Positions 17,124 through 34,864 of a DNA stretch of 49,160 nucleotides are shown piece after piece (within the stretch, counting starts at the first letter, position 1; each line of letters begins with the position of its first letter). The notes beneath the pieces are model-generated. The model saw only the letters and a program-made list of their open reading frames with translations. It had not been told where the DNA came from and made no database searches. Location of the stretch: NCBI GenBank assembly GCA_029063085.1, contig JAIDOW010000003.1:1-49160 (forward strand), in the 5' to 3' direction. Made by a program: the position numbers and the translations under genes. The DNA comes from Lachnospiraceae bacterium (lineage in GTDB: Bacteria > Bacillota > Clostridia > Lachnospirales > Lachnospiraceae).

Positions 17124-20100
17124 ACTGATAATCAGTGCATTTGGTCCCTATGCAGACCGGATGCCTGTCATCGATTTTGAACAGTTTGAAAATAAAGGTC
17201 TTTTTTTGATTTCCGGGGATACGGGAGCTGGCAAGACCACGATTTTTGATGCCATTTGTTTTGCTTTATACGGGGAAACCAGTGGTACATATAGAGATAC
17301 CAGGAATCTTCGCAGTGAATATGCGAAGCCATCGGTGGAAAGCTTTGTGGATTTTTATTTTACCCATCAGGGAAAGGGCTATCATGTATATAGGAAACCG
17401 TCGTATGACAGACCGAAGCAGCGAGGAGAGGGAACAGTTACCGAGAAGGAAAAGGCGGAATTTTATTGTGAAGGCGAGATGCCCGTTGAGGGCACAACGC
17501 AGGTCAATAATGCTGTAAAAGAACTTCTCAAGATAGAATTTAAACAGTTTAAGCAGATTGCAATGATTGCCCAGGGGGAGTTCTGGGATTTGTTAAATGC
17601 ATCCACAGATGACCGGACAAAGATACTTCGGACTATTTTTATGACATCGGGCTATCAGAATATGGGATATCGTTTAAAGGACAGGAAAAATGCTGGTTTT
17701 TCGGGGAAGAAGACGGCAGAAGACAGTATTGTTCAGTATTTTCAAGGTGCAAAAGCAGCAAAGGACAGTGACTTGGAGGAGGAATTACTGTTTTTGCAGG
17801 AAAAGGCAGGGGCAAGCAGCAGTGCATGGAATCTGGATGAAATGCTGACTGTACTATCGGATATCATTTCAGAGGATAAATCAGCGTTAAAGGCTAATAA
17901 GAAAGAGTTAAATGCTGAAAGTAAAAGTCTGGAAGGGAAAAAGAAAGCATTTCATAATGCACATACTAATAATGAATTTCTGTACCGTTTAAAGAGCTTT
18001 GAAGAAGAAAAGGAACGTCTGGATGGCAGAAAGGAAGAAATAAAAGAACTGGAATTTCTTACTGAACGTCAAAAAACTGCTGTCCGGAAGCTGAAACCTG
18101 TTTTTGATATATTGAAAAAAGAGGAGTCAGAGGCTGCAAAGACAGAGAAAGAAATAGCCGTCAAAAAGGAAGAACTGGCAGATGCAAAAACCGCTGTTAT
18201 TTCGGCACAGGAGGGATTGAAAAAGTGCCTTCAGGACAAACCAAGGGCAGAACAGATGATGAAACAATCCGAAAAACTGAAGGAAGATATAGAAAAATAC
18301 GAAAAACGGGATGCACTGGTCTTGGAAATGGAAGAACTGGCAGCGGAAGAGCTGCATCTGAAGAATGAGGAGAAAACACTAAAAGAGAAAGAGCAGGGAT
18401 TAAAGGATAAGATTAAGAAGCTGGACGAGGTAATAAAATCACTTAAAAACTGCGGCGCTCAGCTGGTTCAGATCAGGAATGAGGGAAAAGAATTACGATT
18501 ATTAGAATCGGAGATAGCGGATATCAGGGATCATGCCATTCCTGACTATGAAAAGAAGAGAAAAGAACTTAGGGAAAAACAGGATATTTTTAAGAGTGTG
18601 CGAGAAGAGTATGAGGAAATCCAGGAAAGACGCAGAAGATGTGAACGTGTTTTAGAGCATAGCCGGGCGGGAATCCTGGCAAAAAGTCTGGAAGAAGGAA
18701 AGAAATGTCCGGTCTGTGGTTCCACGCATCATCCGGAACCGGCCGTGTTGTCTGACGAGACTGCTTCGGATGATGAACTGAAAGAACTGTTGGAAAAAGA
18801 AGAGAGGGCAAAGGAAATAAAAGAGCACGCTCTTGTGGAAGCCGAAAAGGCAAAGACAGAAGTGGAAGCAGGGGAAGGACAATTGAGGAGCCGGATTTTA
18901 TCCTGTAAGGAACATAAGCAATGCTCCCAGGTATTTTCGGGAGATGACTCTATGGAAGGGCTATTCCGGGTAATTTCTTTTGCACTAAACAGTGTGAAGG
19001 AACAGGTATTGGTAAATGAGAGAGAAGAAGACAGGGTAAAAAAGAACTGTACAACGTATGATAAAGCCATGGCGGATGTCGAAAAAGCCAGAGGAGAAGA
19101 AACCGACCGTCTTACAACACAGAGGGAGGATTATAATGCAAGAAAAGAGAAGAACCGTACAGCATTGACGGAAAAGAAAGCTGCTCTCAAGGAGTATGAA
19201 AAGCTTGTATTTCCGGATTTAAAGACTGCGAGGGAAGAACAGGAAAGGGCAGAGGAAGAAGCAGGGAAAATTCTTCGTGCGATAGAAGATGCCCAGACAG
19301 CCAGACAGGAAGCAGATACAAAGAAAGCAAAGGCAGAATCCGCTCTTGGCGTCTTGGAAAACACATTTCAATCACAGAAGGAAAAAGCAGAAGAATCGGG
19401 AAAGTGTTTTAAAAAGCTGTTAAAAGCAGAAAAGTTTGTATCGGAAGAATCATTTTTGGATTTTCTCACAGATGAGGAAACAATTGCAGAGAATGAGAGA
19501 AAAATCAATGCATATAAACAGGCGGTTCAAACCAATATTCAACAGTTAAAGCAGGCAGGAGAAGATGCAAAAGGGAAGACAGCAGTTGATGAGGTTAAGC
19601 TGGAAGAAGAGGTTAAGGAGCAGAACCGTCTTGTGGAAACACTGAGGGAGGAGAATACGCAGATCAGCTTCAGGCTTCAAAGGAATGAGGAGATAAAGAA
19701 AAAGATAGAGGGGCAAAGGGGTACGTTAGAAAAATTCCGCAGGGAACATGATATCTGTACCAGACTTTATGATCTTGTTACGGGGAATATTTCCAATAAG
19801 GCAAAGATTACCTTTGAACAGTATATACAGGCGGCAGGCTTTGATCATATCATTGCGGCGGCGAACAGGCGTCTTTTGCCGATGAGCGACGGACAGTATG
19901 AGCTTTTTAGAAAAGATGATTCGGATGATAAAAAGAGTAAAACGATATTAAATCTTGAGGTACAGGATCATTTTACCGGTCATAGAAGACCTGTCGGAAA
20001 TCTGTCAGGCGGTGAAAGCTTTAAAGCATCCTTAAGCCTGGCACTTGGACTTTCAGATACCGTGTCATCTAATCTCGGAGGGGTACAGATGGATGCACTT

Positions 20101-30582: not shown

Positions 30583-30780
30583 GTTCATACTTTAAAGAAA
30601 AAGATAGAAGAATATGATGCAGAGCGTGATGCCAGAAAAATGCTGAAAGAATTGAGCAGCTTGGTGGGAAACGCCTGCTTTTAGTGGTTTTTGGCATCTA
30701 TAAAAAATTTCTGGTTTTATAAGTATGTGAAAACAGTCCAATTTTTGTAAATATATAAAAAGAATCGCTCTAATTTTTGT
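30583..30780 (+). other. Gap with a possible gene remnant
   Basis: No intact gene. From about 30584 a short frame reads KKKIEEYDAERDARKM and ends near 30683, looking like the tail of a lost coiled-coil protein. AATTTTTGT is repeated at 30740 and 30772. A TATAAT (30783-30788) lies ahead of the ATPase gene, without a good -35. Confidence 0.3.
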
Positions 30781-30872
30781 GTTATAATAATATTATTCCC
30801 TTGTTTTTTTGGAAATATATGATATTATTAAGAAAAAATAATCATAGTAAATATGTGACAGGGGGGCTGAAT

Positions 30873-32231
30873 ATGATTTATTTAAAACGAAAAATAGATA
30901 TTTTTTTACAAGAATGGAAAAGTAAATTTGATAGAAAACCTCTTATTGTTAAGGGACCAAGACAGGTTGGTAAAACAGAATCCATAAGACGTTTTGGTGC
31001 AGGAAACTATGAAAATGTGATTGAGATTAATTTTGTAGAAGAGCCGAAATATAAAATGATTACAACCGATGGATACAAAACCAATGATATCATTAAAAAT
31101 ATTTCCCTGTTAGATCCAGAAAAAAGGTTTATGGAAGGAAAAACGTTAATTTTTTTTGATGAATTACAGGAATTTCCGGAAATTTCGACTGCACTAAAAT
31201 TTTTTCAGTTAGATGGAAGATTTGATGTAATATGCAGTGGTTCTATGTTGGGAATAAATTATAAGAAAATTGAGAGTAATAGTGTAGGCTACAAAACAGA
31301 TTTTGAGATGTATTCATTGGATTTTGAAGAATTTTTATGGGCAAAAGGATATGATGATTCGAAAGTTGGTGATTTACTTAAACATATGGAAAGTAATACA
31401 CCTTTTAACGAGGTTGAATTGTCTGTTTATAACGCATTGTTTTTGGATTTTTGTGTTCTTGGCGGGATGCCGGCGGTAGTGCGGGAATATATAGCAAAAG
31501 GTACTTTTGAAGGGTCATTAGAGACACAAAGACAGTTGATAGCGGATTATAAAGAAGATATCCGGAAATATGCAGAAGGTGTGGATCAAACAAGAGTGTT
31601 GAATGTATTTAACCGGATTGCTGTACAACTTGCAAAGGATAATAAAAAATTTCAGATTTCTAAGGTTGCGTCCGGAGCCCGCTTCAAAGATTATCGAGGG
31701 TGTATTGAATGGCTAGATGATGCAGGAATGATCAATATCTGTTATTGTCTGGGATTTCCGGAACTTCCCTTAAAGGGAAATTATGAGGAGACAAAATATA
31801 AAATATATTTTGCGGATAGTGGATTACTTGTCGCTATGTTAGATGAAGAAGCACAGGAGGATTTACGGAGCAATAAGAATCTGGGAGTATATAAAGGTGC
31901 TCTTTATGAAAATATTGTCGGAGAAGCACTGGTAAAAAGCGGATATGAATTGTATTATTATAAGCGTGAAGATTCCACGTTGGAAGAGGATTTTTTTGTC
32001 AGGACTGCTTCGGAACTGATACCGATTGAAGTAAAAGCAACGAACGGAAGAGCCAAATCATTGCGTACGTTAATCAATAGTGAGAAGTATACAGATATTC
32101 GTTATGGAATTAAATTTACAGGAGGAAATATCGGATATCGTGACAGGGTATATACTTTTCCTTATTTTTGTGCCTTTTTGTTAAAACGATATTTAAAGAA
32201 GGAAATATATATGGAGGGAAATAAGCAATAG
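30873..32231 (+). CDS. AAA-type ATPase with DUF4143 domain
   Basis: 452 residues. Walker A is KGPRQVGKTE (about 29-38) and Walker B is LIFFDELQEFPE (about 91-102). A C-terminal DUF4143/PD-(D/E)XK-like part ends with IPIEVKAT. Many copies occur in gut anaerobes, often as lone genes; function is poorly known. I start at the ATG at 30873, behind a run of G (CAGGGGGGCTG); the upstream TTG frame has no ribosome binding site. Confidence 0.85.
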   Translation: MIYLKRKIDIFLQEWKSKFDRKPLIVKGPRQVGKTESIRRFGAGNYENVIEINFVEEPKYKMITTDGYKTNDIIKNISLLDPEKRFMEGKTLIFFDELQEFPEISTALKFFQLDGRFDVICSGSMLGINYKKIESNSVGYKTDFEMYSLDFEEFLWAKGYDDSKVGDLLKHMESNTPFNEVELSVYNALFLDFCVLGGMPAVVREYIAKGTFEGSLETQRQLIADYKEDIRKYAEGVDQTRVLNVFNRIAVQLAKDNKKFQISKVASGARFKDYRGCIEWLDDAGMINICYCLGFPELPLKGNYEETKYKIYFADSGLLVAMLDEEAQEDLRSNKNLGVYKGALYENIVGEALVKSGYELYYYKREDSTLEEDFFVRTASELIPIEVKATNGRAKSLRTLINSEKYTDIRYGIKFTGGNIGYRDRVYTFPYFCAFLLKRYLKKEIYMEGNKQ

Positions 32232-32268
32232 GAGTATGGTGGTACGATAAAAAATGAATAGAAGGCAA

Positions 32269-32297
32269 TTGACAAATTTAGAGAGCTATTCTATAAT
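32269..32297 (+). promoter_or_regulatory. Consensus promoter of the second MATE gene
   Basis: Perfect TTGACA (32269-32274), 17 bp, perfect TATAAT (32292-32297). Transcription would start near 32304, giving a leader of about 250 nt. Confidence 0.8.
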
Positions 32298-32327
32298 TAC
32301 TTAATATTATAAGAGAGAGGTGAAAAA

Positions 32328-32339
32328 ATGAGGAGATAA
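32328..32339 (+). promoter_or_regulatory. Three-codon leader ORF (Met-Arg-Arg-stop)
   Basis: ATG AGG AGA TAA preceded by a strong GAGAGAGGTG ribosome binding site. Both arginine codons are of the rare AGG/AGA type. The ribosome binding site (32311-32321) can pair over 11 bp with 32434-32444, the 3' side of the downstream terminator and its T-run. A ribosome on the mini-ORF would prevent that pairing. Confidence 0.65.
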
Positions 32340-32417
32340 TCTGCTTTTGAAGACACGAAACATGATTTTGATGTGATTCTGAATAAAAGAATCATATTTG
32401 TTTTTGTCGCCAAAAGT

Positions 32418-32446
32418 GGTTTATGTTCTCATAACCTCTCTTTTTT
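32418..32446 (+). terminator. Terminator hairpin in the MATE leader
   Basis: GGTTTATG (32418-32425) pairs with CATAACC (32430-32436) around a TTCT loop, followed by TCTCTTTTTT. The 3' arm is shared with the long-range helix to the mini-ORF ribosome binding site, so the two folds exclude each other. Confidence 0.6.
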
Positions 32447-32555
32447 GTGTGGAAAAATATAATCAGAAGCATAGGGAGAAATTCTCGGATTATTATTGGA
32501 TGAGGTTGCTTACAGGCATAAGTTTTTTTGGCGAAGAGGAAGGGAGATAAAGTTT

Positions 32556-33914
32556 ATGCAAAGAAAAATAGACAGAAAATTATACAAAAGAATATTTGTG
32601 GTGGCATTTCCAATCATGCTGCAAAATCTGCTGGATGCTGCCGTAAATTCAGCGGATGTGCTTATGCTGAATTATGTAGGGCAGGATGCCATATCGGCAG
32701 TGTCTTTAGCCAGTCAGTACGGAAATGTGATATTTATGTTTCTATACGGAATCGGGACAGGTGTTTCCATGCTGAGTGCACAATACTGGGGAAAGAAGGA
32801 TACCCGCACGATTGAAAAGGTAGAAGGAATTGGTCTGCGTTTTTCCATGTCCATTGCCTGTATATTTGCAATGCTGTGTTTGTTAGTGCCGGAGGGATTA
32901 ATGCATGTTTTTACGGAGGATAAGGAGTTGATCCGTTTAGGAAGCATTTATCTTAGAATCTGTGCACCGGCTATGGTATTGTGGAGTATCAGTGCTGTGT
33001 ATACCGCTGTTTTACGCTGTATTGGAAGGGTTGCGACCAGTACCATTATTGAGATGATATCGTTGTTGTCCAATGTGTTTTTAAATTTTATATTTATATT
33101 CGGCTATTTTGGCATGCCCAAAATGGGGATTGCAGGTGTTGCACTTGCCACTGTGATGTCCAGAGGTATTCAGCTGGTCTGCTGTATGATTGTTTCAGCC
33201 GGAAATCAGGATGTAAAATTATGCGTAAAACCTATTTTTGAGAAGCATCCGGCATTGTTTAAGGATTTTATCGTTATGGCACTTCCGGCTATTGCCAATG
33301 ATGTAATCTGGGCACTGGGATTTTCCATGTATTCGTTTATTTTGGGACATCTGGGAAATGATGCTGTGGCCGCCAATTCTATTGTATCAGTAGTGCGTAA
33401 TCTTGGCAGCGTATTATGTTTCGGTATTGGAAGCGCTTCTGGTATCATTGTAGGGCAAATCCTTGGGGAAAATAAGATTGAGGAAGCTAAGAGAGTCAGC
33501 CGCAGCCTGCTTAGAATGTCTGTGGCTGCCGGGGTGATTGGCGGAGTCTTTGTATTTTTACTGTCACCGGTTGTGATGCATTATGTCAGCCTTTCAGAAA
33601 CAGCTATGGACTATTTACAATTTATGCTATATATCAATACTTATTATATTACCGGGAGCGCAGTAAATACAGTGCTGATAGCCGGAATCTTCAGGGCGGG
33701 TGGTGACAGCAGGTTTGGATTCCTTTGTGATACCATTGATATGTGGTGCTATGCGGTTCCTTTGGGCTTGCTGGCAGCATTTGTATGGAAACTTCCTGTT
33801 AAAATAGTTTATGTCCTGTTATGTACGGATGAGTTTGTAAAATGGCCGTGGGTATTTAAACATTTTTGCAGTTACAAGTGGGCGAAAAATATTACAAGGG
33901 AGAATATTGACTGA
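32556..33914 (+). CDS. MATE-family multidrug/sodium exporter
   Basis: 452 residues, about 12 membrane segments, usual MATE length. Motifs VAFPIMLQNLLDAAVNSADVLM and GIGTGVSMLSAQYWGKKD in the N half and GIASGIIVGQILG-like GSASGIIVGQIL in the C half. It likely exports cationic or aromatic compounds, driven by Na+ or H+. I start at the ATG at 32556, which has an AAGGGAGA site; a TTG at 32496 is 20 codons earlier. The promoter and attenuator upstream suggest it is induced by a ribosome-acting compound. Confidence 0.88.
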   Translation: MQRKIDRKLYKRIFVVAFPIMLQNLLDAAVNSADVLMLNYVGQDAISAVSLASQYGNVIFMFLYGIGTGVSMLSAQYWGKKDTRTIEKVEGIGLRFSMSIACIFAMLCLLVPEGLMHVFTEDKELIRLGSIYLRICAPAMVLWSISAVYTAVLRCIGRVATSTIIEMISLLSNVFLNFIFIFGYFGMPKMGIAGVALATVMSRGIQLVCCMIVSAGNQDVKLCVKPIFEKHPALFKDFIVMALPAIANDVIWALGFSMYSFILGHLGNDAVAANSIVSVVRNLGSVLCFGIGSASGIIVGQILGENKIEEAKRVSRSLLRMSVAAGVIGGVFVFLLSPVVMHYVSLSETAMDYLQFMLYINTYYITGSAVNTVLIAGIFRAGGDSRFGFLCDTIDMWCYAVPLGLLAAFVWKLPVKIVYVLLCTDEFVKWPWVFKHFCSYKWAKNITRENID

Positions 33915-33985: not shown

Positions 33986-34864
33986 TCACGGATGAAATCG
34001 CTTCTTTAATTTCTCAAGCATTTTTTCAGCAATGGGAGTAAATACCTGATATTTTTTCCAGATTAAATACAGTTTTGTTTCAAGTTTGGGTGTGAGCGGG
34101 CGGAAGACCAGACCGCTGTCAGGACCTGTATTAATCAGATGTTCAAAGGTCAGAAGATACCCCAGCCCTTCCTTGACGAAAAGAGAGCCATTATAGGACA
34201 GGCGGAAAGAGCCTTCTAGAAGCAGATTGTTGATTTTGTTTCCACACCATCTGGGAATGTCATGGCTCCAGCCCTGTTCAGAGCAGAATAAAGGAAGTCC
34301 GGTTAGATCATCGACAGAGACGGACTGTTTTCCTGCAAGGGGACAGTCTTTAGGCATGACAACACCCCATAAATCCGCTTTTGGAAATGTCAGATAATGG
34401 TATTTATCTGTATTTGGTTCCTCTGCCAGTACAGCAAAATCAATAACTCCTTTATCCAATTTCTCTGTAACCTGTTCCGTGTCTCCGCTGGTGATGTGAT
34501 ACCGCAGGTCGGGATAGGAATTTTTGAATGACTTAATCTCGGCGGCAAGATGTCTGATTTGATAGGATTCTGCCAGACCAAAATAGACTTCACCGCCTAA
34601 TACATCGTCCAGTGAGAGAAATTCCGTAGTAATTTTGTCTGCCATCGATACAAGGTCTTCGGCACGCTTGCGGAGCAGGATACCTTCTTCTGTCAGTTCT
34701 ATGTGAAAGCTGTGACGTACAAATAGTTTTTTTCCCAGTTCATCCTCCAGTGATTTTAATTGTTTGGAAAGTGTAGGCTGGGTAACGTGCAGGAGTTCGG
34801 CTGCACGGGTCATGTTTTCTTCCCTTGCCACAGCAAGAAAATACCGCATAGTTCTCAGTTCCAT
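33986..34864 (-). CDS. LysR-family transcriptional regulator
   Basis: 292 residues. N-terminal winged HTH: MRYFLAVAREENMTRAAELLHVTQPTLSKQLKSLE; the rest is a periplasmic-binding-like effector domain. A GGAAGAA site precedes the ATG. It is divergent from the small protein and the hydrolase genes at 35004-36233, which are its likely targets. A palindrome ATATCATGATAT (34900-34911) in the shared promoter region is a candidate binding site. Confidence 0.92.
   Translation of the reverse strand: MELRTMRYFLAVAREENMTRAAELLHVTQPTLSKQLKSLEDELGKKLFVRHSFHIELTEEGILLRKRAEDLVSMADKITTEFLSLDDVLGGEVYFGLAESYQIRHLAAEIKSFKNSYPDLRYHITSGDTEQVTEKLDKGVIDFAVLAEEPNTDKYHYLTFPKADLWGVVMPKDCPLAGKQSVSVDDLTGLPLFCSEQGWSHDIPRWCGNKINNLLLEGSFRLSYNGSLFVKEGLGYLLTFEHLINTGPDSGLVFRPLTPKLETKLYLIWKKYQVFTPIAEKMLEKLKKRFHP

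Follow-up and report, generated by a model that had tools for sequence, protein, structure and literature searches.

What does a three-codon reading frame do in the leader of a MATE exporter gene, and for which gene did this leader arise? The question is raised by positions 32269-32555 of the window, as we call the whole stretch of 49,160 nucleotides analysed here, which lie ahead of a MATE gene. It is probable, in our view, that the leader is a ribosome-stalling attenuator of the ARE-ABCF type, which once stood ahead of an ABC-F gene and now precedes MATE through loss of that gene. The class of mechanism (ARE-ABCF attenuator) is known, and the capture by an exporter is a corrected identity of the locus.

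Promoter and upstream reading frame

The features of the locus, all on the forward strand, are as follows.

32269..32297 (+): sigma-A promoter TTGACA-17-TATAAT, 12/12 consensus match
32311..32444 (+): long hairpin T1 with the uORF in its 5' arm, proposed terminator and anti-antiterminator
32313..32322 (+): Shine-Dalgarno of the mini-ORF, also within the 5' base of the long hairpin
32328..32339 (+): uORF ATG AGG AGA TAA (Met-Arg-Arg-stop); an ORF of 3-6 codons is here in 60/60 related leaders
32407..32439 (+): shared 3' arm with two alternative partners, the uORF arm (T1) and 32502-32534 (antiterminator), by masked folding and duplex calculation
32418..32436 (+): local hairpin, an alternative fold once the T1 5' arm is occupied, by masked folding
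32441..32446 (+): six-U tract abutting the T1 stem, from sequence
32502..32534 (+): downstream antiterminator partner GAGGUUGCUUACAGGCAUAAGUUUUUUUGGCGA, by duplex energy
32536..32546 (+): ribosome-binding site of the MATE gene, in the same place as the ABC-F one in relatives
32556..33914 (+): MATE family exporter, 452 aa (Pfam MatE 4.4e-46; TIGR00797 8.1e-57)

The perfect sigma-A promoter that a sequence-only reading of this DNA had claimed is confirmed (12 of 12 positions at 32269-32297), and transcription would start near 32304. A promoter of 9/12 or better is found 0-40 bases upstream in 49 of the 60 related leaders, while the same count in shuffled upstream regions gave a mean of 7.85 and a maximum of 14 over 20 rounds. 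The uORF begins 30 bases past the promoter, and the three-codon ORF with a strong ribosome binding site was read correctly, as the letters ATGAGGAGATAA at 32328-32339 stand behind AGAGAGGTGA, the longer stretch directly ahead of the uORF reading GAGAGAGGTG. The leader thus carries a very short uORF with its own Shine-Dalgarno near the 5' end, which is what is expected of ARE-ABCF uORF attenuators. With the motif relaxed to RGAGGTG, five bases, ATG MGN NNN TAA, a pattern designed after the site had been seen, there is one hit in the window, and none of 100 shuffles has any. The 12-mer ATGAGGAGATAA alone is not significant, because a second copy lies at 19685; that copy was dismissed, having neither such a Shine-Dalgarno nor a leader. 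An AAA_14/DUF4143 gene (30777-32231) immediately precedes the leader in the same orientation.

Folding of the leader

T1 is a hairpin of 134 nt and 52 pairs that spans the whole leader, with the uORF and its Shine-Dalgarno in the 5' arm. Its minimum free energy is -53.7 kcal/mol, compared with -26.05 +/- 3.41 for 200 dinucleotide shuffles (z -8.11), none of which was as good. The leader end is U-rich in 58 of the 60 leaders, with five or more T within a stretch of 8 bases. The 11-bp pairing of 32311-32321 with 32434-32444, which had been described earlier from the sequence, is real, but it turned out to be just the base of the 52-pair hairpin. The local hairpin, also noted earlier, reads GGUUUAUG-UUCU-CAUAACC and is predicted as the alternative fold when the 5' arm is unavailable; the long hairpin looks the better terminator, because UCUC parts the local hairpin from the U-run, whereas the T1 stem abuts six U.

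The consensus terminator scan lists nothing in the leader, and T1 is missing from it because the scan permits loops of 3-8 only. In Rfam there was no match in the window at gathering scores, the best sub-threshold one over 32240-32600 having E 0.36. Skipping-rope RNA, a long-hairpin motif, was considered and dropped, since no Rfam family matched at the gathering score.

Distribution of the leader family

A DNA search of 60 genomes gave matches in 10, nine of them of the same genus including the window's own; the tenth, outside the genus, was discarded as a short match to the start of another gene with no leader. Covariance model R1 was built from ten leaders and R2 from 59. With R1, 51 of 397 sampled family genomes were matched, as were 9 of 26 genus genomes at E 1e-6, the window's genome being included in both. 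With R2, 15 of 392 order genomes were matched, all within Lachnospiraceae. The class sample yielded 4 of 391, including two weak matches from outside the order. Filtering was stricter for the order and class samples, at the cost of weak matches. The 60 leaders examined are 52 from the 397-genome family sample (the own genome counted twice) and 8 from genus genomes. Five further loci from the R2 order and class searches were kept out of the 60-leader counts: L202, L204 and L208 precede a clear ABC-F gene, L219 precedes a distant one, and L220 has neither a clear uORF nor ABC-F.

The window's genome holds only two copies of the leader, the other of which precedes an ABC-F gene. There is no sign of mobility of the leader, as judged from a plasmid search, which gave no match, and from a narrow test of viral contigs with one exact pattern, which gave 0.

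Conservation of the uORF and of the pairings

All 60 leaders have an ATG-started ORF of 3-6 codons after a Shine-Dalgarno, a count that is biased upward because the covariance model was trained on MRR leaders. The uORF is three codons long in 57 of the 60 and ends in Arg or Lys in 52. The encoded peptides are MRR (25), MRK (13), MRI (6), MKR (5) and MSR (2), together with MIR, MRM, MRL, MER, MLK, MKK, MSSTR, MAGFIK and MRNR, once each, and the Arg at codon 2 is spelled AGG, AGA, CGA or CGG. The extra bases in G440 (six) and G145 (three) keep, by eye, the frame into the usual AGATAA/AGATAG. The six weakest leaders (30-44 bits) still have the ORF and an ABC-F frame.

In an alignment of 59 leaders (57 distinct), T1 pairs in 92.4% of cells; sliding the 3' partners by 1-3 columns lowers this to 47.2-59.9%. 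Two-sided change was seen at 22 of 37 pairs, whereas shuffles gave 9.4 +/- 2.1 and none of 500 reached 22; kinship alone can exceed shuffles, although for the two-sided measure it does so rarely in the tool's own trials. G022 was omitted from this alignment because of its long loop and is present in the other counts, and the poorly aligned weak rows G298, G444 and G145 were kept. The first ten leaders alone carried no signal: there was a single two-sided pair, reached by 360 of 500 shuffles, and 95.7% of cells were paired, reached by 310 of 500. Of the 52 T1 pairs in the window, G382 and G025 each form 50, and three of the pairs show two-sided change, four times in all. The covariation check that had been proposed gave a signal for the long hairpin on 59 leaders. 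Conservation in relatives had also been named as the point on which the sequence-only reading could fall, and on it the reading held, with the mini-ORF in 60 of 60 leaders and covariation in T1.

The predicted antiterminator and the proposed switch

The duplex of the shared 3' arm with 32502-32534 has -31.2 kcal/mol in the window, compared with a mean of -22.8 for shuffles, none of which out of 100 was as good. When a ribosome footprint on the uORF was masked and five loci (the window, G025, G018, G382 and G248) were folded through the spacer, an antiterminator was predicted in three of five, namely the window, G025 and G018; in G382 and G248 no antiterminator appeared, and the local hairpin was found instead, plus a T2 hairpin in G248. 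The masked window RNA ending at the T1 U-tract shows the local hairpin, which in this short RNA might still terminate weakly. Among the 60 leaders, 51 have an antiterminator duplex that is more stable than at least 95 of 100 shuffles, while 9, including G248, had no duplex beating 95% of shuffles. A mutually exclusive fold with the uORF occupied is therefore obtained by computation for the window and two of the four other loci, and the duplex for 51 of 60. The earlier idea of a mini-ORF attenuator in which the position of the ribosome could pick the fold stands, but the likely antiterminator, downstream at 32502-32534, had been missed.

The facing bases vary with the arm: four arms UGUCGCC with a UUUGGC partner (G000, G025, G382 and G100) face GGCG, and arms UGUUGCC usually face GGCA, although G248, G366, G189 and G440, among others, have GGCG and a U-G pair. 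A terminator-like hairpin is present in the spacer of 38 of the 60 leaders; in many it is GGAACUGUUUGGC...GGUUCUUUUUU, the 5' strand of which is the antiterminator partner, and in some (G025, G440, G109, G000b) it is a different hairpin. By the same criteria, no second terminator was found in the window's spacer.

We infer both termination and ribosome stalling at the window leader, and the switch would work as follows. Without drug, the ribosome would read ATG-AGG-AGA-TAA and depart at once, upon which the 5' arm with Shine-Dalgarno and uORF would close on the 3' arm, whose end is at 32444, and the T1 hairpin abutting six U would halt transcription. A drug that holds the ribosome on the first codons would keep the 5' arm covered, the freed 3' arm would pair with 32502-32534, no terminator would form, and the MATE mRNA would be completed.

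By homology, a ribosome inhibitor would be what induces the window pump. Macrolides are less likely inducers, because they mostly require longer or special peptides, although exceptions are known among short peptides that contain Arg. Lincosamides, pleuromutilins and streptogramin A are, by analogy, the likely ones, as in the excerpts of PMC10201436 it is proposed that three-codon uORFs are stalled by PLSA drugs, which act just after initiation.

The ABC-F gene behind the leader

The leader had been taken for one belonging to the MATE gene, which primarily it is not: an ABC-F frame lies behind the leader in 55 of the 60 cases (one of them, G392, broken, and four matching the query weakly: G336 2e-24, G109 2e-24, G145 1e-18, G313 8e-15), so MATE apparently inherited it. 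The controlled gene is an ABC-F ribosome-protection gene in these 55 relatives and MATE in the window. Both ABC-F proteins tested, from G025 and from the window's own genome, are Lsa-like and score below the curated Lsa cut-off. For the first 483 of the 519 residues of the G025 protein, Lsa is the best NCBIfam model (1.1e-167; 558.9 bits, compared with 136.8 for the CplR model), and Lsa(A) 7nhk is the nearest among solved structures (7.8e-102); for the own-genome protein Lsa is again the best model, with 623.8 bits compared with 168.6 for CplR. A cplR leader proper, where the controlled ABC-F is CplR, is therefore not what was found.

Proposed inheritance of the leader by the MATE gene

The MATE protein of the window has MatE domains and matches TIGR00797, which places it among MATE exporters, and it reaches none of the listed equivalog cut-offs. 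Its dN/dS is 0.05-0.07 relative to two relatives, with dS of 1.0-2.2, near or beyond saturation. A LysR-type regulator gene (33986-34864, -) is convergent with it.

Three gene orders are relevant here. In G025 the order is leader, ABC-F (519 aa), 210 bases and MATE, the latter with 82% DNA identity to the window MATE. In G382 the leader is followed by a 12-codon ABC-F remnant, MAQIDVNNLTFY-stop, and by the same MATE (83% identical protein). In the window the leader is followed directly by MATE, whose start falls in the ABC-F slot, 21 bases behind the antiterminator partner; the ABC-F start is 19 bases behind it in G382 and 30 in G025. Among 80 MATE relatives, some with little upstream DNA, the leader was found at E 0.01 or better in two, G025 and G382.

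That the ABC-F gene was lost is the best explanation of why the attenuator now precedes an exporter. An operon of leader, ABC-F and MATE, from which ABC-F was lost in two lineages, would be the simplest history, and this is the order of evolutionary events that we infer; two losses are suggested because the breakpoints in the window and in G382 differ, although a single loss with later erosion may also account for them. The window leader thus appears to work like an ARE-ABCF attenuator and seems to be descended from one, and it is now no longer the leader of an ABC-F gene. The pump would presumably export a compound of the inducing type; no MATE pump is known to export lincosamides or pleuromutilins.

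Five leaders in all (the window, G382, G100, G248 and G097) are exceptions to the rule of a following ABC-F. In G248 (L190:519-1790) the ABC-F slot is taken by a gene whose product has a GNAT domain and, judged by eye, a P-loop motif, and in G100 (L189:6954-7430, -) by a related stand-alone GNAT gene; both sit behind the leader and a second terminator. In G097 (L188:301-1698) a calcineurin-like phosphoesterase gene lies about 330 bases after the leader and second terminator, with no ABC-F in the stretch read. No ABC-F remnant was seen at G100, G248 or G097, so loss of ABC-F there is an extrapolation. To hypothesize, the Met-Arg-[Arg/Lys] leader could be a portable antibiotic sensor that has been handed on repeatedly by ABC-F loss, to MATE twice with different breakpoints, to a P-loop/GNAT fusion, to a GNAT gene and perhaps to a phosphoesterase, so that deletion alone would create new drug-inducible genes and a stalled ribosome would switch on export instead of ribosome protection; we give this wider proposal a little less than an even chance.

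Other explanations of the locus

A relic is the alternative to which we give most weight, although we hold it unlikely: the leader would persist by inertia and still terminate, while MATE would be mainly silent and gain nothing. The absence of ABC-F and of a detectable second terminator fits this, as does the fact that the leader-MATE arrangement or its precursor is present in only three genomes. Yet a relic would hardly be expected to have a 12/12 promoter, 50 of 52 T1 pairs in common with each of two relatives, an antiterminator duplex that beats 100 of 100 shuffles, and a MATE gene under strong purifying selection; the retained T1 pairs and the dN/dS of MATE argue, at the level of sequence comparison, for function. 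Far less credible is an attenuator specific to MATE that evolved together with the exporter, as had been assumed earlier since the next gene in the window is MATE. This reading is hard to hold with ABC-F behind 55 of 60 leaders, with the ABC-F start that lies between leader and MATE in G382, and with 78 of 80 MATE loci (some with little upstream DNA) lacking the leader at E 0.01 or better.

Attenuation by arginine, in which starvation for Arg-tRNA would stall the ribosome on AGG/AGA, is equally improbable: at least one Arg codon is present in 57 of the 60 uORFs, but three have none (MLK, MKK and MAGFIK), other residues replace either Arg, and 55 of the 60 leaders serve an ABC-F gene and not an arginine gene. 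We give practically no credence to the hairpin serving the upstream gene as its terminator or being a mobile palindromic repeat, with the mini-ORF arising by chance. The upstream gene does end at 32231 on the same strand, but a perfect promoter lies in between, the own genome has two copies only, the other being ahead of ABC-F, and both the uORF and the pairings are conserved.

Comparison with known attenuators

Erm-type stalling leaders combine a longer stalling peptide with a methyltransferase gene, whereas the window combines three codons with a MATE gene, and mef(E), which is also compared below, is of the MFS efflux family. Of the precedents put forward in the sequence-only reading, erm peptides are therefore longer and less apt and short-ORF attenuators are retained, the apt ones, according to excerpts of the papers, being the three-codon uORFs of ARE-ABCF genes (PMC10201436, PMC9226507). 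The comparisons that follow likewise draw on excerpts of the cited papers.

In C. difficile, cplR has a three-codon uORF with consensus MR[I/M] within a hairpin and is controlled by transcription and translation attenuation, with lincomycin and retapamulin as inducers (PMC10201436). Our leader resembles it in the three-codon uORF starting Met-Arg, in the position of the uORF in a hairpin and in a close switch logic, and 7 of the 60 uORFs (MRI or MRM) fit the cplR consensus. Unlike in cplR, the uORFs are mostly MRR or MRK, the ABC-F proteins tested fit Lsa better, the uORF hairpin of the window itself abuts the U-tract and the gene is MATE; the likeness is one of features. In B. subtilis, vmlR has a three-codon uORF, MIN, inside an anti-antiterminator hairpin, the base of which is opened by the stalled ribosome so that the antiterminator forms (PMC9226507). 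The switch logic proposed here is the same as published for vmlR, although sequence and ABC-F subfamily differ; the vmlR terminator SL-3 is a separate hairpin, whereas in the window a U-tract belongs to the uORF hairpin itself; a further terminator-like hairpin is seen in 38 of 60 leaders and not in the window.

In L. monocytogenes, lincomycin relieves premature termination at lmo0919/rli53, before an ARE-ABCF gene (PMC11550727); genus and gene differ from ours, and the two are likened by description. At mef(E)/mel a single ribosome-stalling attenuator governs both an efflux gene and the ABC-F gene mel/msrD, but with an eight-residue peptide (MTASMRLR), macrolide induction and another efflux family, and no loss of ABC-F is described in the excerpts (PMC4335068). 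LsaA, the best-studied Lsa gene, likewise has a short uORF ahead of it, with a reported consensus of MAGN compared with MR[R/K] here (PMC10201436). Neither MATE nor Lachnospiraceae is mentioned in the excerpts of the uORF4u paper (PMC10219788), and in open-licence literature, as far as its excerpts go, no description was found of a Met-Arg-[Arg/Lys] leader or of MATE under such control.

If the proposal is true, it provides a concrete route to drug-inducible genes, in which a resistance gene is lost while its sensor is kept. The family-wide leader offers pairings that can be tested, it predicts inducible ABC-F genes in approximately one in eight sampled Lachnospiraceae genomes (51 of 397), and its narrow Met-Arg-Arg/Lys consensus raises the question of whether peptidyl-transferase inhibitors stall the ribosome in a sequence-dependent way just after initiation.

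Additional observations

The second leader of the window's own genome (G000:C100:17028-17274, L195:329-575) precedes an intact Lsa-like ABC-F of 510 aa, and an insertion of about 110 bases, flanked by TTAA, splits its T1 3' arm; a repeat origin of this insertion was rejected, as the stretch is single-copy in the genome. The apical loop of the G022 leader (L078:1501-1710, -) has about 70 extra bases carrying their own hairpins. In G392 (L015), behind an intact leader, the ABC-F frame breaks after approximately 113 codons and continues into the 3' portion of a P-loop/GNAT gene that resembles the one in G248.
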